DNA from: Mayamaea pseudoterrestris
Taxonomy: Eukaryota; Bacillariophyta; Bacillariophyceae; Sellaphorales; Sellaphoraceae
DNA: 64,000 nucleotides
Reading direction: 5' to 3'
Assembly (NCBI GenBank): GCA_027923505.1
Contig: BROI01000015.1
Span: 124,001-188,000, forward strand
A program made the position numbers and the translations under genes. Below the pieces are notes generated by a model. It saw only the letters and a list, made by a program, of their open reading frames with translations, had not been told where the DNA came from and did no database searches. Shown here piece after piece: positions 16,192-25,386 of the stretch (the stretch's first letter is position 1; every line of letters begins with the position of its first letter).

Positions 16192-17283
16192 ATGTTCCCA
16201 TCATTCCGGAGCAGCCATTTCGTCGCAGCTCTCTTGAGCTTCATTGTGACTCTCTCAATGTCCCGCGGAGGCGCCGCGCTTCCGATGGACCATCACCATC
16301 CGACATCTAAGACAGCAATTCCATTGCCGACATTACAACGAAGTGAGGGTGTTTCGAGCATTACTTTTCCCGAGCCAAAGCCCCCGTCCAACATTGAAAA
16401 CGGATCCTTGTCTTACATTGAATTTCCGCAAAGCCTTTGGGAACGACTCGAGTGGATGATTCCTGTGGCAGCCGGCATCGCATCCTTCACAACGTTCGCC
16501 TCTGTGAGCGCCACCTTTCACAAAATTGTACAGTGGATGAGCTCTAATACGTGGCTGCCAGAATCAAAAGACGATATTAACCTTCAAGCCAACGTCGTGA
16601 CGCAAGTCATTAATGGTCCAGTCATTACTTCCATCTCGGTGCTCTTTGGGACGCTAGTTTCTGTCACAGTCGCAACTCTGCACTCGCGGCAGTTTGATAT
16701 CCAAAAGTCACTCATCATCGAAATGCAGACGCTCCGACAGCTACAGTTCCTGCTCAACTCAAAGTCTGTTAGCACTGTTCTAGAATCGACAGTCCGTCTA
16801 TGGGCAATCGGATGCGTTTCCCAGCATTCCAGGCAGTTTCTCCTTGACCATTACGACAATGACACGGAACGATCAGACACTGACCCTCACGCACGCATTG
16901 AGTCCAACCTAATAACGTTACTAAATGGATGTAACGATTTGCTACTGAGCGATAAAGACTTCGATGCTCGAATGAGACTTGTTATATCGGCCACTCGTGA
17001 TCTTGCCTTGAAACTTATCAAGCAACGCACGAATCGCTGGCTAGCGCTCAAGGCACTCAAGTTTCCCGCCGTTCATTACATGACACTCTCTCTGCTTGCT
17101 CTTGGCATAAGCATTTCGTTTCTTGTCGCCACGGACGAAGCCGATTTCATCTTTCTACACGGACTACCCGTGAAAATCCTTTGGACCATTTTAATGTCAA
17201 GCTTCGCGGCGCTGGCAGTGGTGCTGAACGACTTGACGCGGCCATTTGGAGGTTCATACCGCGTTGTGAGTACGGGTAAATGA
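16192..17283 (+). CDS. DUF4239 (bestrophin-like) membrane protein
   Basis: The 363-residue protein starts with a probable signal peptide (MFPSFRSSHFVAALLSFIVTLSM). A hydrophobic segment lies near 85-105 (IPVAAGIASFTTFASVSATF), and a pair of TM segments near 145-165 (VITSISVLFGTLVSVTVATL). The C-terminal third reads FPAVHYMTLSLLALGISISFLV then ILWTILMSSFAALAVVLNDLTRPFGG. This arrangement is typical of DUF4239, a poorly characterised family called bestrophin-like in plants. A channel role is only suggested by the family name. Targeting cannot be settled. Confidence 0.65.
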   Translation: MFPSFRSSHFVAALLSFIVTLSMSRGGAALPMDHHHPTSKTAIPLPTLQRSEGVSSITFPEPKPPSNIENGSLSYIEFPQSLWERLEWMIPVAAGIASFTTFASVSATFHKIVQWMSSNTWLPESKDDINLQANVVTQVINGPVITSISVLFGTLVSVTVATLHSRQFDIQKSLIIEMQTLRQLQFLLNSKSVSTVLESTVRLWAIGCVSQHSRQFLLDHYDNDTERSDTDPHARIESNLITLLNGCNDLLLSDKDFDARMRLVISATRDLALKLIKQRTNRWLALKALKFPAVHYMTLSLLALGISISFLVATDEADFIFLHGLPVKILWTILMSSFAALAVVLNDLTRPFGGSYRVVSTGK

Positions 17284-17741
17284 GGCAATTAATCGTAAGC
17301 ATTAGGCGATTTGAAATGCACGTTGAACAATGGACTGACAGCAAGCAAAGGTGCGAGGTGCGAGTCGCTTGATCTGCCTTTAAACTTTGAAAGGAGCCAA
17401 ACCCACTGCTCGCAAAGACGACGCTGCATTGTCTTGCCTTGCGTGGTCACTTTAATGTTTAAATTACTTTCTCGACGAGCTTGCTCAAGTCAACATGCTA
17501 ATCCACTGCTACTTTAATGTCAAAACATGTTTCAATTTAACTCGTGTTTTATATATTGGCAGGGTTCTAAACTTACAGTATGTACCTAGTGTCTCGGCGC
17601 CACCATGTGTTCATTAACAAGGTATCACATGGCAACTGTCGCGATGGAACGACTAGGTGAGGGGCGCACAAGAAGAGGTGCGTGGGGTTTGTAGCATCGT
17701 TGTGCAATCATGTCCGCCCGACAATGTTTTGACGGCCACAT
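17284..17741. other. Convergent intergenic region after DUF4239 gene
   Basis: About 460 bases between two converging genes. It contains AT-rich runs (for example TTTTATATATTGG near 17550) fit for 3' ends. I see no coding frame with protein-like composition, no tRNA-like B box and no repeat. Confidence 0.45.
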
Positions 17742-18512
17742 CTAGGCGGCAGCAGCTAGCTTTGGTGCTTGTAGTATAATAGCATTTAGCAAAAAGTTGG
17801 ACTTTTGCTGATCAAGTAAAGATCCAACATAGGCGTCACCGTAAAGGTTGGGAACCACTGTGAGCGCGAAGCGAATCAATGAATCAAAAAACTTTCTGGA
17901 TTCATCGTATGCCTGCATCTCAAAAGTGACATGGGCAAGGTTGTTGTACAATGCCATGGAAAGCATGTCAATCACTGGATTGCTCGTCGCGTTCAAAGGA
18001 ACGCCAGCATCCGCTAGCAAATTGTGCGCCTTTTGGTAAAGGGACTTGGCCTTGCGGAGTCTCATGTCGCTCATGCATCGACCCTCCAGTCCCTTCAAAT
18101 GGTAAATGATGGACAGGTTGAATATGATGATGCTTGAAACAACAGTCGTGTTGATCAACGGGTCAGGCGAGTAAGCCGATTCATGAGGAATGAGGTTGAT
18201 ACCACGACCATAGGCAAACGGAGCGGAAATGGGATTCATCTTGCCCTCCTGCAAGGAAGCAGCGTCCCTTGGCTTTGGCCGCGTCGTCGCTGGAGGTTCT
18301 CCGCTTCCACTGCGACGGTGCGACGGAGCATGAACGTCAGTGTGTTTTGTAACATTGCGGACGCCTTGAGGAAGCTCTCGAGCCAGGGGATCCAAGTCAC
18401 CCATGGTGTACTTGAGCGCGAGACTGAAATGCTCCAACGCGCTGCGAAGGTCGCCAGCTTCTAGCTTGGCAACTCCATGATTATTCTCGTCGACAGCTTC
18501 CTGGTAGTGCAT
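17742..18512 (-). CDS. TPR-like protein of unknown function
   Basis: A 256-residue product. The first 35 residues (YQEAVDENNHGVAKLEAGDLRSALEHFSLALKYT) form a tetratricopeptide-like helix pair. After a low-complexity Pro/Arg segment (about 60-95), helical units return: IIFNLSIIYHLKGLEGR, RLRKAKSLYQKAHNLLAD, MALYNNLAHVTFEMQAYDESRKFFDSLI. This is the TPR pattern of N-L-[AS] at turns. No catalytic motif is visible, so a protein-interaction role is all that can be said. A TGA lies just upstream in frame, so the ATG at 18512 is the first possible start unless an upstream exon exists. Confidence 0.6.
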   Translation of the reverse strand: MHYQEAVDENNHGVAKLEAGDLRSALEHFSLALKYTMGDLDPLARELPQGVRNVTKHTDVHAPSHRRSGSGEPPATTRPKPRDAASLQEGKMNPISAPFAYGRGINLIPHESAYSPDPLINTTVVSSIIIFNLSIIYHLKGLEGRCMSDMRLRKAKSLYQKAHNLLADAGVPLNATSNPVIDMLSMALYNNLAHVTFEMQAYDESRKFFDSLIRFALTVVPNLYGDAYVGSLLDQQKSNFLLNAIILQAPKLAAAA

Positions 18513-19060
18513 GTTCCTTTGTCAGCGTATCGAGTGATACTTGCAATGCTTGAGGACTCTTTTTGCTGCTGCTGGTGCTTGCAGTTGTGGCGTCGATGCT
18601 GGCAGGGGGATCGGAGAAATTAGTCGACGCACCTCATCGTGTGCGAACTTGTTCTACCACCAACTGCACCGGATCTGATCAGCCCTTTCAGACGGCAATG
18701 CCTTCGGTCGGGCGACCATAAGTAAACTTTGCAGATGTCTACGCAACGCAACTTAGGGCAATGGTAAAAGCGACTCTATCTATTATAGCTGATGACAAGA
18801 TCCACAAGCTTCAATGACGTAAGTCGACACACCCTTCAACTTGCCAGCGCAGGCAGACGGTCCGATCCGGATGACCAATGCGAACGCACGGAGTTTCCGA
18901 GCTTTTCAGTCACGCGTTGCCGCTTGAAAACATCACATCGTTACTCGATTTGCGGCGTCGCGCATCCAGCTTGCGGTCACCATGGCTTGCGGATGCAAAA
19001 GTCAATGTAGAACGCACGGCATACTGATTCCCATCTTGCGTTGATTATTCTGCAATAATC
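18513..19060. other. Divergent intergenic region, TPR protein / PAF1
   Basis: About 550 bases with no convincing gene. It holds a TGACGTAA (bZIP-like) element at 18815-18822. On the minus strand, just upstream of the TPR gene, there is a short out-of-frame Ser/Thr-rich stretch without an ATG. A distal 5' exon cannot be excluded, but I could not define splice sites for one. Confidence 0.4.
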
Positions 19061-20942
19061 ATGAACGACGACGAGCATAGACGAGAAGAGGAAGAGAGAC
19101 GTCAGAAGCGTAAGGTAAGGAAGAACCTTTCCGATGCATGCGACGAACACAAAAATTATTTCGTTTCGTTTTGTTTGACTGCTCTACGCTTTGATTGCCA
19201 AGCTTGATGTTTAATTGGTAGAACATGCTGACCAATCTCACAATTTAATCTCTTCTCTTTGTCACAGGCTAGCAAAGCCTTCAAGACAGATGCCCAGAAA
19301 GAGAAGCAGCGCAAGCGCGATGAGGTACGTCCATAAAACGGAGCATCTGCTGGTCTGCTGGTAGTTTAGCTAAGCAGTGTGGTGGTGATGTCACATTGTC
19401 TCTGACGCTTTTAATGCGGTCCCTGTCATATAGCACAAGCGCAAAGTGTTGCAGCAACAAGGTGGTGCATCTTCAGGTGGAGGCGGCAAGAAAGGCAAGG
19501 AGATTGTCGGTTCCAAGTTTCAGGAATTATTCGAGCAAAGAGCACTAGGCTTTCATATTGATTTTCGGTTTCGAAATGCTCCGCCTCGTCCACCCGTTGG
19601 GCCAACATTTGTGGGTCACTCTCTTGACGCCGTTTTGATTGAGGTGTGTCGACAGTACAAACAGCATAATTCAGTGGAAGCGAATCACACGTGGCGCTTG
19701 CACACGGAGCCAGACTTGGGCGTTCCATTGGCGCCGTCCGCTATGGACCCCAAGTCATATCCTGTCCCTGGCGAAACCAAGACTCCTAAGCCGCGAGTCA
19801 AACTTCATCCCGACGACGAGGCGTTGCTTAATTGGAAGGGCCATATGGGCGACACGGCTTCCGATTTGCTCAAGCGACGACAAGATCGCGCTCGCGCTGC
19901 AACTCGAGCAGCGTTGAGTGGTAAGACTATTGCAGCTTCGTCGTCTATTCCAGCCCAGTATTCCCAGCGGCCCGACCGGAAACACTTTTCTCGCGTGTTG
20001 GATGAAGACATGCAGACTTGGATGAAAAAGACCACGTACTTGTCCAATGACTATTCGCGAAAGGTGCACGACTTCAAGTCACTGGCACAGACGAAGCAAG
20101 ATGTCGTAATTGACTTGGATGCCAAGCAGGAGGAGATGTTGAAGCGTCGGTCTGTTCAGGCAATTCAAAGGTCGTTCCATTTGGAGAGTTGCCCGATCGT
20201 TCACCCAACCAAGAAACATATGCAGCCCAAGTCGGTTACTCAACTCTTGCCTAACGTGACTCATTGGGGCCGAGCGTATACGCACGTTGTCATTGACAAG
20301 CCACCAGTACTTAGTCAACAATTTAAATTGGAGGATCTCGAGTCGGCAATTGTGGCGCACGTGGAAAGGAAACACGCGAACTCACGCATGACGTGCCAGC
20401 TACTGTTGCGAACGCAAGGCAACAGCGAGGAGGATGCGACGAAGTTTGACGACGATGCCGATGCCGTCCGATACCAATCTGCACAAGCGTTTGATCTTGA
20501 TGTGGTACCGCTTAAGGATGAAGAAGCTCCGCATGTGCATTTTAGTTTTTCGGTCGATGAGAAGAACGGAGAAGCAACGTACTTACCGATTGCGTCACGT
20601 GTCCAGCTATCATCTGGACGGCCTATTTCGAATGGTGGCATCCGTAAGGTGTCGCGGCGAGCGCTCACTTCTTCTGAGCAAGATGAACTGGAAGAGCTGC
20701 AGGCCGAAGTTGATTGGGATCTTGCAGAGAAGCACCATCTTCACACGACACTTGGGCGCCGGACAGTTGGAAGTTTAAACGGAGCAGCAACTAACAAAAG
20801 AGCCACGACAGAAACCAGCGTGGGCGAAGGAGCAGAAAACGATGATGAAGACGATTTTGGCGACGAAGACGACGAGTCGTCTGATTCTGGCGACGACACG
20901 CTTTTTGGCGCCACGCGTAGAACCATTGTTGCTGAAGGATAG
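19061..20942 (+). CDS. PAF1: RNA polymerase II-associated factor 1 (PAF1), three exons
   Basis: Exons are 19061-19114, 19268-19324 and 19434-20942; introns of 153 and 109 nt keep phase 0, giving 539 residues. The first two exons are tiny and encode a highly charged helix (MNDDEHRREEEERRQKRK). The body shows PAF1 landmarks: FRNAPPRPPVGPTF, LHTEPDLGVPLAPSAMDP (the TEPDLG motif) and MQTWMKKTTYLSNDYSR. The C-terminus is very acidic, as in yeast and animal PAF1. PAF1 scaffolds the complex that travels with elongating Pol II and promotes H2B ubiquitination and H3K4 methylation. Without the splicing the first in-frame ATG would fall inside the body, so the small exons are well supported. Confidence 0.9.
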
Positions 20943-22107: not shown

Positions 22108-23766
22108 TTATTTAGCCAATGCTACTCGCCCAGGTTGAAACTTTAGGATCTGCTGTAGCTTCGCCCTATTGAAAGGGGCGCGGATAAAATCGCCAGACTC
22201 GCTTCGTCGGTCAATTTGAACCAAGCCATGATCCGTCAACTCGTTTAAAAACGAGTCAAGCCCCGAATCTTTGGCGATAATGTGGGAGTTCTTGCACTGT
22301 TTTCGAAAGACCGGCATTTTAACCCACGACTCCTCTAAAGTTTGCTCCAATTGCAGCTTTGCCAAAACTTGCATCACCTCCGTGTGCCGAGGGGCAAGTA
22401 ATTCAAGCACTCCCTCAACGCGTTCAATCCGTTCAAGTTGTGATAACTCTGCTTTGTGTATAGCAGATTTCTTCTTTGATTCCGAAAGCATGACAAGTTC
22501 CTTCACATATGGTCGGTAAGTATGCAGCGGCAAGTAAATCCACGCCAAGTTCGCGGCGACATGTGAGGTAAACATGAGCTCTGAGGCCGAAATATGATCG
22601 ACACTTGCCACAAGACGTATTGCGTGCGCATTAACCTCCACGTTGCTATTGACGACCAAAGCTGCTAGTGCGTCTGTAGCAAGCTTACTACGCAGTGAGT
22701 CTCCATCCAAGCTATGAATGACGAGAAAAATTGGCAAAAGCGATTCGCTCGCCTCGTATGCGCATGCTCGGCCGACCAAAATGGCCCGTTCCACCAACGC
22801 ATGAGCTCGCCAGGGAATTGACTCGCCAAGTACCTTATGTGTCCCGTCATGACTTTCGATCCGTCCTTTGGAAACTGGCTCATTACCACCCAGAAACTGA
22901 TTGACAAGCAAGTCAAGAACTTTTGTCATGCTAATGTCTTTGTCGAAGCCATCTATTTGCAACACATATCCTTCCTTGCGTAATTCTTGGTCACAAAACT
23001 TGGTCAACAAGTCGTACTTTGACCCAGCCCCCAGAAACAAGAGCGAATGGTTGGTCGAGAGCAGAAAGCGCCAGTGTGGAAATGCAGGCTTGTAAGATTC
23101 TTCGTATTCTGCAGCGTCTTTGTGGAGGTGATTGTTTTCTTGAAGATGGCGCGCAACTTGTGAGATGGAAGGTAATTGCAATTGTTCGTCCAAACGAGCA
23201 CTATTAGTCGTAACAGGAGCTCTCTTGCGTTTCAGATTAAGTGCCCTTTTGCCATGCAAGTACAGATCCGTACCGACATCGGTCTGCGTGGTGGATCCTT
23301 GCTTGCTGCTCGGTAGCGTATTTCGTCTCGTATTACTGGTTGCGCCTTCCTCCATGACGTGCTCGGGCTCGAATTTGTTGGGTTTGCTTTCATGCCTTAA
23401 GCGTTTGTTCAACTCATCCTTTGTATTTTCAAACATCATCCGCAGTGCCTGCCGACGGATTTCCATTCCTTGCTCGACTTCTTCCTTTGTTTGAAAATCT
23501 TCATTGGAGGTGACGAGCTCCAGAGTACTATAAACGTCCGGGAGAGCATATTGGTCCAAGTACGCCATTACTTCCTCCCATCTGTCAAAACGTGGCCCGT
23601 TCTCGGCGGGTGCTTGATACTGATACCCAGTCACTGAGAGAGTCGTTGTTCGATACGACCATCCAGCTTGTTGCAGGCAGTTCCAAACGAAGGCGTACTC
23701 AAACTCTTGGAACTTGAATCTAACTTCGATGGCCTTGTGTGTTTCATCAATTTTTAACTCACTCAT
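22108..23766 (-). CDS. ORC2: Origin recognition complex subunit 2
   Basis: The 552-residue product (start at 23766, MSELKIDE; an in-frame Met at 23787 is an alternative) has a divergent N-terminal half. The ORC2 core follows: FLLSTNHSLLFLGAGSKYDLL, the degenerate AAA+ P-loop region typical of ORC2; QIDGFDKDISM; LVIHSLDGDSLR; IRLVASVDHI. A C-terminal winged-helix region ends GDFIRAPFNRAKLQQIL. ORC2 is part of the six-subunit complex that marks replication origins and loads MCM. A GC-rich patch and an inverted CCAAT box lie just upstream. Confidence 0.9.
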   Translation of the reverse strand: MSELKIDETHKAIEVRFKFQEFEYAFVWNCLQQAGWSYRTTTLSVTGYQYQAPAENGPRFDRWEEVMAYLDQYALPDVYSTLELVTSNEDFQTKEEVEQGMEIRRQALRMMFENTKDELNKRLRHESKPNKFEPEHVMEEGATSNTRRNTLPSSKQGSTTQTDVGTDLYLHGKRALNLKRKRAPVTTNSARLDEQLQLPSISQVARHLQENNHLHKDAAEYEESYKPAFPHWRFLLSTNHSLLFLGAGSKYDLLTKFCDQELRKEGYVLQIDGFDKDISMTKVLDLLVNQFLGGNEPVSKGRIESHDGTHKVLGESIPWRAHALVERAILVGRACAYEASESLLPIFLVIHSLDGDSLRSKLATDALAALVVNSNVEVNAHAIRLVASVDHISASELMFTSHVAANLAWIYLPLHTYRPYVKELVMLSESKKKSAIHKAELSQLERIERVEGVLELLAPRHTEVMQVLAKLQLEQTLEESWVKMPVFRKQCKNSHIIAKDSGLDSFLNELTDHGLVQIDRRSESGDFIRAPFNRAKLQQILKFQPGRVALAK

Positions 23767-23840
23767 GATTCTTAATGGTATGATCATTCATGGCGCTCAA
23801 GCTGCGGGACCACAAACTGTGTGGTGTGAGGGGGTTTTGT

Positions 23841-24026: not shown

Positions 24027-24869
24027 TCAGTGTGTCGAACAAAGTAGGGACGAGCTCGCCTTTGTGATGACAACTTTTTGATAAAGACCTTGAAAAAAGA
24101 CGTCTTTCCGCATGCTATAGCCAGTTGCCTTTGGCAGCCAATCAGTAATTTGACTTTTCCAGAGATCCATGGCGAATGGCTCGAGCGTGTGGAAAACAAA
24201 CGGCATGAAATAGCGATGAAAGCTCCATCTAGTAGGCCGATGATAATCAATAATGATAAGCTTGCCACCATCGGCCAGTACTCTCCAAGCTTCTGCTAGA
24301 GCTTCTCGACGCGCTTGTTTTGGAAGCTCGTGGAGTAGAAAGAACATCACCACTTGCTCTCGACTGGCATTCGAAATATTGGTTAGCTTTGTGGCATCCG
24401 ATAACATCAAGCCAACCTCCTTGTCCAATGCTCCGGCAGCTTCCAGCTTGGTTCTCAAGTTCTCAATCTGTATTGGGGCCACGTCCACAACATCTAGCGG
24501 TGCCCTCATGCCAAGCGCAAGTCTCGTCGTGACGTTGCCGTAAGCACAAGCTATTTGAAGAGTCGTCTTGTCTGGATTAATTTCTCGAAGCATTTCAGTC
24601 GCGAGCAAATTGTAATTGCCCCATAGAATCGCATTAACAATCCAGTCTCGCTCGAATAACTGAACTCCTTTTGGATGAAGATACGCCCACCAGTATGTGT
24701 CGACGAGGTATGCTGGAATAATAGTTGAAGTGGCAGGTCGAGCTTGACTTTTGGGATGAGGCAGAGTCCCACAGCTTTTATCGTGAAAGAAGCTCGAGCT
24801 GGAGCTCATTCTCGCCCTTGGGATTAACCACAGGCGTCGGTAGAGTGAAATTCGATGTAACATGTTCAT
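24027..24869 (-). CDS. rquA: RquA-type methyltransferase-fold enzyme (rhodoquinone biosynthesis)
   Basis: This 280-residue protein matches RquA, which converts ubiquinone to rhodoquinone by replacing a ring methoxy with an amino group. Diagnostic features are DTYWWAYLHPKGVQLFER (58-74), NAILWGNYN, and the atypical SAM motif QIACAYGNVT (106-115), which replaces the usual D-x-G-x-G-x-G. LDVVDVAPIQIENLR, FFLLHELP (176-183), DYHRP (208-212), LEPFAMDLW and the end GLYQKVVITK also match. The first 45 residues (MNMLHRISLYRRLWLIPRAR...) are basic and Ser-rich, as in a mitochondrial presequence. Rhodoquinone carries electrons to fumarate reductase under low oxygen. RquA is bacterial in origin and patchy in eukaryotes, so transfer is likely in its history. 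Codon use looks like its neighbours, so it is not a recent contaminant. Confidence 0.85.
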   Translation of the reverse strand: MNMLHRISLYRRLWLIPRARMSSSSSFFHDKSCGTLPHPKSQARPATSTIIPAYLVDTYWWAYLHPKGVQLFERDWIVNAILWGNYNLLATEMLREINPDKTTLQIACAYGNVTTRLALGMRAPLDVVDVAPIQIENLRTKLEAAGALDKEVGLMLSDATKLTNISNASREQVVMFFLLHELPKQARREALAEAWRVLADGGKLIIIDYHRPTRWSFHRYFMPFVFHTLEPFAMDLWKSQITDWLPKATGYSMRKDVFFQGLYQKVVITKASSSLLCSTH

Positions 24870-25074: not shown

Positions 25075-25386
25075 ATGATTCAACTTACAGTGGAATGCAG
25101 CTGCGAACAGATGCAAGTCAACGATCCAAGAGAAGTGGCAACAATTTTACAATGTAGTCTTCGCGAACTTTACGGGGACTTTGATTCATATGGCTGCAGT
25201 CGCATTCAAGTCCTTAATTCTAGTGAAAGAAGTGAGATCGGTTGTTTCCTAGTGACATGTCCAGAAGAATCAGAACAAGCTGTTCGAGCTGCATTGACTT
25301 GGATAACACCGCCTCCGTATCTCGACAGCAACATTTATCGATTTGACGTTGTCGGCCACACTTCGATCGAGAGTGAGCTAGCATAG
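25075..25386 (+). CDS. Rpp14/Pop5-family RNase P/MRP subunit-like protein
   Basis: This small 103-residue protein has the alternating strand-helix pattern of the Rpp14/Pop5 family: LTVECSCEQMQVNDPREVATIL, then CSLRELYGDFDSYGCSRIQVL, GCFLVTCPEESEQAVRAALTWIT and IYRFDVVGHTSIE. The helix ending L-[YF]-G and the final V-[VI]-G-x-T resemble the family's aa-beta fold. Pop5 and Rpp14 are protein subunits of RNase P and MRP, which process tRNA and rRNA precursors. The match is by eye and short, and the start could lie on an upstream exon. The window also holds an Rpp30 gene. Confidence 0.5.
   Translation: MIQLTVECSCEQMQVNDPREVATILQCSLRELYGDFDSYGCSRIQVLNSSERSEIGCFLVTCPEESEQAVRAALTWITPPPYLDSNIYRFDVVGHTSIESELA

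Follow-up and report, generated by a model that had tools for sequence, protein, structure and literature searches.

Rhodoquinone is an electron carrier on which mitochondria can run in the absence of oxygen. RquA converts ubiquinone to rhodoquinone with S-adenosylmethionine (SAM) and Mn2+, and joint replacement of Asp118 and Asp143 in the R. rubrum enzyme is described as abolishing rhodoquinone synthesis (PMC9814641). The published signature of the family lies in motif I, where Gln and Val replace Asp and Gly, and the Val is described as diagnostic for every RquA (PMC7813818). Stairs et al. 2018 (PMC5953543) report that eukaryotes acquired RquA through gene transfer, and their Group B includes "a diatom group"; the same paper gives a precedent, from protists, for rhodoquinone working alongside complexes I and II. 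Our literature search on RquA and rhodoquinone in diatoms returned no report beyond PMC5953543, as judged from titles and the opening parts of abstracts. RquA in diatoms is already known, and the gene described below is a solid further example of an enzyme of known kind. What is added here is a diatom rquA with a secure nuclear position, on a long contig and flanked on both sides by conserved eukaryotic genes, together with a list of its partner enzymes.

The window, that is, the whole 64,000-nucleotide stretch analysed (C15:124001-188000), is part of a 788-kb contig in a 30.6-Mb, 41-contig genome. All feature coordinates are positions in the window, and the gene itself is as follows.

24027..24869, minus strand: rquA open reading frame, 280 amino acids, intact from ATG to stop, intron not required

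The initial annotation had assigned this frame to RquA from its motifs. The curated NCBIfam equivalog model for the family, NF038261, matches residues 51–269 with 262.2 bits (E 3.9e-78, profile positions 1–217 of 218), which exceeds the cut-off of 175 bits by 87 bits. The second-best NCBIfam model, a corrinoid-protein-associated methyltransferase, reaches 58 bits against its own cut-off of 180. The model discriminates well: of 14 control genomes, 12 give weak matches and none gives a match above the cut-off, and in four rquA-bearing bacterial genomes the rquA copies score 284–309 bits versus at most 47 bits for the next-best methyltransferases. A 96-residue open reading frame runs antisense within the gene (24253-24543, plus strand), and nothing marks it as a gene.

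Bacterial relatives were collected by scanning contigs with a synthetic probe built from the diatom RquA motifs, using the single pattern YWWAYxHP. The scan returned 427 stretches, 415 of which were confirmed as relatives. The best 80 of these 415 are 48–54% identical to the diatom protein, share its motifs, and match the same model; by title they come from Rhodoferax and other Comamonadaceae, Competibacteraceae, Contendobacter, Roseateles, Magnetococcales, other beta- and gammaproteobacteria, and a handful of bins with odd labels. NF038261 was also searched against 398 genomes from the phylum of one Magnetococcales genome, a set that includes this rquA-bearing centre genome itself; of these, 74 came out at E 1e-40, 60 of them above the cut-off. 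From this search, loci were taken for 30 of 75 matches and for 20 of the remaining 45. In total, 133 bacterial rows were assembled, including four loci from rquA-bearing genomes and with some genes present twice, and thinning at 82% identity left 72 bacterial rows plus the diatom RquA.

In a quick tree with three UbiE-like outgroup rows, which sit on long branches, the diatom protein falls inside RquA. In a tree of 72 rows, with no outgroups and with the aberrant row L141 removed, it groups with 56 bacterial rows with a support of 96/92, and no smaller well-supported set within these 57 rows contains it. Its terminal branch is long (1.21 changes per column), and the closest bacterial identity in the tree alignment is 56%, with none higher among the 133 bacterial rows. 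Thirteen divergent bacterial rows form a clade of their own (100/99). In AU tests, placement of the diatom protein outside the 56 bacterial core rows was not rejected (p 0.294), and its placement with the divergent low-scoring group was marginally not rejected (p 0.079). The tree and AU tests singled out no donor lineage, and a search for relatives in plasmids, phages, and IMG/VR found none. Membership in RquA is firm. Group B, as described in PMC5953543, contains beta- and gammaproteobacteria, the groups to which the nearest bacteria found here belong. By description, the Group A enzymes of Pygsuia, Blastocystis, and Euglena have the enzyme family and proposed role in common with the diatom protein.

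These data also bear on whether a UbiE/COQ5-type or generic methyltransferase was mistaken for RquA. In Pfam the protein matches only at the level of the methyltransferase fold (Methyltransf_25, 41.5 bits; Ubie_methyltran, 33 bits), and this Class I SAM methyltransferase fold is indeed common to UbiE/COQ5 and the diatom protein. However, the UbiE-type NCBIfam models give at most 38 bits versus 262 for RquA (TIGR01934 does not pass, with 37.9 bits against a cut-off of 158), and the tree sets the protein with the bacterial RquAs and apart from the UbiE-like rows, the long branches of the latter notwithstanding. The NCBIfam scores and the tree refute the methyltransferase reading, to which we assign a negligible probability. 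The phylogenetic check proposed at the outset, in which a position outside RquA would have overturned the assignment, therefore came out in favor of RquA.

Two further observations concern the bacterial sequences. The members of the divergent RquA-like group (L142-L156, L159, and L160) score 156–186 bits, around the cut-off, and are 31–38% identical to the diatom protein; DYHRP and GLYQK are missing from most of the 13 rows aligned, and genome G227 carries two copies. They might be Group A proteins or have a different function. In addition, rquA occurs in bins labelled Chloroflexota (L050, Anaerolineales) and Cyanobacteria (L042, Synechococcaceae). L050 groups with a betaproteobacterial copy in the tree, and for both cases mis-binning of contigs or a recent transfer is the likelier explanation.

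The motifs and key residues of the diatom protein are placed as follows.

24672..24695, minus strand: YWWAYLHP motif, residues 59–66, conserved columns in 59 bacterial rows
24528..24560, minus strand: degenerate SAM motif I, LQIACAYGNVT, residues 104–114 (QIACAYGNVT, 105–114), with Gln105 kept and Ala109 variant
24483..24485, minus strand: Asp129, by motif position the presumed equivalent of R. rubrum Asp118
24396..24398, minus strand: Asp158, by motif position the presumed equivalent of R. rubrum Asp143
residues 176–183: FFLLHELP motif
residues 208–212: DYHRP motif
residues 261–267: GLYQKVV motif, with a 13-residue tail beyond

All five motifs named at the outset are present, but GLYQKVV is not the end of the protein, as had been stated, since the 13-residue tail comes after it. 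Within YWWAYLHP, Tyr59, Trp61, Ala62, Tyr63, and Pro66 are invariant and Trp60 is 97% conserved across 59 bacterial rows, 35 of which came from the scan seeded with YWWAYxHP, so that in those rows the columns are conserved by selection. In motif I, Gln105 replaces Asp/Glu as expected of RquA, and the same residue occurs in 132 of the 133 bacterial rows. The signature Val is replaced by Ala109, where 132 of the 133 bacterial rows have Val and one has Ala. In a comparison with UbiE along the lines of PMC7813818, the Asp and Gly of UbiE correspond to Gln and Ala in the diatom protein. Ala109 is not the methyltransferase Gly either, and we read it as a variant, because the protein passes the curated model and falls with RquA in the tree; the substitution nevertheless lowers the certainty that the activity is unchanged. 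Asp129 is shared by all 59 main bacterial rows and by all 13 divergent ones. At the Asp158 position, Asp occurs in 57 of the 59 main rows, and the divergent group has mostly Asn (11 of 13 aligned rows). Both Asp residues presumed to contact SAM are kept, their equivalence to Asp118 and Asp143 being drawn from motif position.

In the alignment of the 59 main bacterial rows, conservation reaches 95% or more at 59 columns, and the diatom protein agrees in 51. Six of the eight mismatching columns are gaps in the bacteria, which leaves 51 of 53 residue columns kept and two true misses, Ala109 and Phe217, the latter at a position where Pro is 98% conserved. Residues 146–148 and 163 are inserted relative to bacterial RquA. 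We infer lasting selection on a working enzyme, because the frame is intact and nearly all conserved residues are kept at such divergence. An alternative is an RquA homologue with a shifted function, still SAM-dependent but with no or weak rhodoquinone synthesis (e.g., methyl transfer or another quinone change). Ala109 in place of the signature Val, Phe in place of Pro217, the insertions, and the long branch could all be taken in that direction, but the 51 of 53 strongly conserved residues, both presumed SAM-contacting Asp residues, Gln105, and the 87-bit margin over the equivalog cut-off speak against it, and we consider a shifted function unlikely. With the curated model passed, the tree placement with bacterial RquAs, and the motifs all there, the RquA identity given in the initial annotation is borne out, and the sequence evidence supports the frame well as a genuine member of the family.

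The conserved core begins at residue 51 and is preceded by the following stretch.

24720..24869, minus strand: N-terminal stretch, residues 1–50, candidate mitochondrial presequence

The first 30 residues contain five Lys/Arg and one Asp/Glu. There is no signal-peptide-like hydrophobic stretch, the highest nine-residue mean being 0.48 versus 2.48 in the N-terminus of one plastid light-harvesting protein, and a plastid or ER signal is therefore unlikely to be encoded here. The amphipathic moment is reached by 1956 of 2000 shuffles and so is not above shuffled sequence. In bacteria, over 133 rows, the candidate start most distant from the core, which may differ from the true start, lies a median of 35 residues ahead of it and at least 50 residues ahead in 36 rows, so that the N-terminal stretch is not clearly an addition. 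The description of a mitochondria-like presequence was thus overstated: the basic charge and the lack of a signal peptide agree with it, but the amphipathicity is no better than that of shuffles and the length is not distinctive. Every complete eukaryotic RquA is reported to carry a predicted targeting signal (PMC5953543). Taking the charge together with the analogy to eukaryotic RquA and the site of ubiquinone synthesis, a mitochondrial location is most likely for the diatom enzyme.

On either side of rquA, the nearest genes are the following.

22108..23787, minus strand: ORC2, origin recognition complex (PF04084, E 9e-36)
25075..25386, plus strand: Rpp14/Pop5-like RNase P subunit (PF01900, 25.5 bits, cut-off 23)

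ORC2 is about 240 bases from rquA and the POP5-like gene about 200 bases away on the other side. Eight neighbours were scanned (ORC2, the Pop5/Rpp14-like subunit, a Sel1-repeat protein, CNOT11, heme oxygenase, CLU, patatin, and Paf1), and all belong to families with eukaryotic members. The GC3 of rquA is 0.48, compared with 0.36–0.52 for these neighbours and a mean of 0.72 (range 0.43–0.89) for 80 bacterial rquA genes. Measured against the eight neighbours, rquA has a codon fit of 0.015, the neighbours themselves 0.010–0.059, and the 80 bacterial genes −0.083 to 0.046; because these ranges overlap, we place the weight on GC3 and context alone. A search of the genome with the RquA protein gave a single match, the one copy found. 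The single copy, the eukaryotic neighbours, and the neighbour-like GC3 agree with the earlier view of the gene as integrated in the nucleus, and rquA is a resident nuclear gene. That view also took the gene to look expressed, which was an overstatement.

Bacterial contamination of the assembly was weighed against the same data. The gene is intronless and its bacterial relatives are about 50% identical, as contamination would allow. The passages of PMC5953543 that describe introns in rquA concern other eukaryotes, and the eukaryotes named there with intron-bearing genomic rquA do not include diatoms. Contamination is very unlikely, because the gene lies in long contiguous nuclear sequence between conserved eukaryotic genes, with ORC2 and the POP5-like gene close by on a 788-kb contig and with ORC2, CNOT11, CLU, and Paf1 among neighbours of eukaryotic families; none of the 133 bacterial rows exceeds 56% identity, and GC3 matches the neighbours. 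The flanking genes, GC3, and the identity ceiling refute it in practice, and we give it next to no credence. As a resident nuclear gene, the diatom rquA differs from its bacterial relatives in its eukaryotic setting, and its product differs in the basic N-terminus, the two insertions, Ala109, Phe217, and the 13-residue tail.

Partner enzymes were sought in the same genome in six frames, exon by exon, with the best candidates scored (15 of 42 in the SDHA and fumarate reductase search), a procedure that copies with short exons can escape. One gene for the complex I 51-kDa subunit and one intron-containing gene for SDHA, the complex II flavoprotein, were found. Complex II and a further quinone enzyme are thus both encoded by the host. 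In this combination of RquA, complex II, and complex I, the host resembles the eukaryotes of Group B as described in PMC5953543. PFO and [FeFe]-hydrogenase had been suggested as further partners, and neither turned up in this genome: PF01855 (PFO/PNO) gave 0 matches, and no recognised HydA was found. The sole Fe_hyd_lg_C gene, on contig C40, was rejected as HydA, with 45–75 bits against cut-offs of 406–900 in three [FeFe]-hydrogenase models. It looks like a Nar1/NARF-like gene, its ending ...DIQW being one that we take to be typical of Nar1/NARF. Fumarate reductase and complex II variants had also been suggested: beside the one SDHA there is one strong match to a soluble fumarate reductase, inside a fusion with ERO1 described below, and this search brought up no additional complex II flavoprotein of an anaerobic kind. 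A candidate second SDHA on contig C13 (L014) was rejected as L-aspartate oxidase-like (382 bits, under that model's cut-off of 453).

With PFO and [FeFe]-hydrogenase not found, any metabolism in the dark or under hypoxia would depend on complexes I and II. The implication originally drawn from RquA, a hypoxic or dark metabolism, is broadly right. We regard it as probable that an RquA of bacterial origin, encoded in the diatom nucleus, makes rhodoquinone from ubiquinone in the mitochondrion and that fumarate is then reduced by ordinary complex II. The gene would have been transferred from bacteria to the eukaryote, a direction taken as in published work, and would be expressed as an active enzyme. 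At the inner mitochondrial membrane, RquA would replace one ubiquinone methoxy group with the alpha-amino group taken from SAM in a Mn2+-dependent reaction, yielding rhodoquinone. When oxygen is scarce, in the dark or under hypoxia, rhodoquinone would take electrons from complex I and give them up to ordinary complex II, which would turn fumarate into succinate, and proton pumping and NADH oxidation could then continue without complexes III and IV.

A working RquA might instead supply rhodoquinone to sulfide:quinone or ETF dehydrogenase chemistry, or to nitrate-linked dark survival, rather than to fumarate respiration by complex II. Diatoms are reported to survive dark anoxia on stored nitrate (PMC10407231, PMC3660698), and PFO and HydA were not found here, both of which would suit such a use. 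The presence of the complex I subunit and SDHA argues the other way, as does the statement in PMC5953543 that every rquA-bearing eukaryote surveyed encodes complex II, and we judge this other use improbable. The preferred reading remains rhodoquinone-linked fumarate reduction through complexes I and II. The presence of these subunits, with PFO/PNO and a recognised hydrogenase not found, narrows the metabolism that is possible. The nuclear diatom gene lets one ask of a photosynthetic cell whether it makes rhodoquinone in the dark without oxygen and respires fumarate.

The soluble fumarate reductase match lies on contig C35 at about 16369-20019 on the minus strand (L166:2369-6019), where a single ATG-started frame of 1216 residues joins ERO1, fumarate reductase, and the first part of cytochrome b5. 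The ERO1 domain (E 7e-76) matches ERO1-like protein alpha with 173 bits and with the CxxCxxC site aligned. The fumarate reductase domain, of the soluble Osm1/flavocytochrome c type, scores 390 bits with the flavocytochrome c model (cut-off 285) and 304 bits with "Fumarate reductase 2" (5glg). We take the structure entry 3ahr to be human and 5glg to be yeast Osm1. Judging from the frame translation, a short intron appears to separate this part of b5 from the remainder of the domain. With yeast Ero1 and Osm1 in vitro, thiols are reported to be oxidised after oxygen is exhausted, with fumarate as the acceptor (PMC6242907). Among the matches listed in our literature searches (Ero1/Osm1/fumarate reductase, and Ero1 in diatoms), none describes a natural fusion of ERO1 with fumarate reductase, and the fusion is perhaps more novel than RquA itself.

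Judged by its domains, the fusion could make fumarate, in place of oxygen, the end point of oxidative protein folding in the ER. Its presence in an rquA-bearing genome points to fumarate as a wider electron sink. We offer only tentatively, as a possibility less probable than its negation, the broader idea of a fumarate-based, oxygen-sparing programme, in which RquA-made rhodoquinone and complex II would serve the mitochondrion and the fusion would serve disulfide formation in the ER. If true, this would be a photosynthetic cell with two fumarate-terminated electron routes and with no PFO or [FeFe]-hydrogenase found.

Finally, the genome is that of an alga, as first described: 53 matches to the light-harvesting family PF00504 were found, exon pieces included. 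For two of these proteins, the best PDB matches are diatom fucoxanthin-chlorophyll proteins (277 and 247 bits). We take PDB 7vd5, 7vd6, 6jlu, and 6ly5 to be from Chaetoceros and 8iwh to be from Thalassiosira. A third light-harvesting protein (L002) best matches a multi-unit chain of 9vfj with 180 bits, versus at most 86 bits for single-unit chains. The plastid seems to be absent from the assembly, because the photosystem core family PF00223 gave 0 matches in it. The silicon transporter family gave ten matches in the genome, nine of them above the cut-off and six of them long (459–659 bits). Together with the light-harvesting matches, these transporters make a diatom much the most probable host, with a closely related silicified alga (Parmales) as a far less probable one. 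Three of the six long matches lie in one frame at C1:2970622-2974956 on the minus strand, where three transporter units are arranged head to tail in 1444 residues, the first listed start being TTG; further silicon transporter matches lie on contigs C17 and C18.
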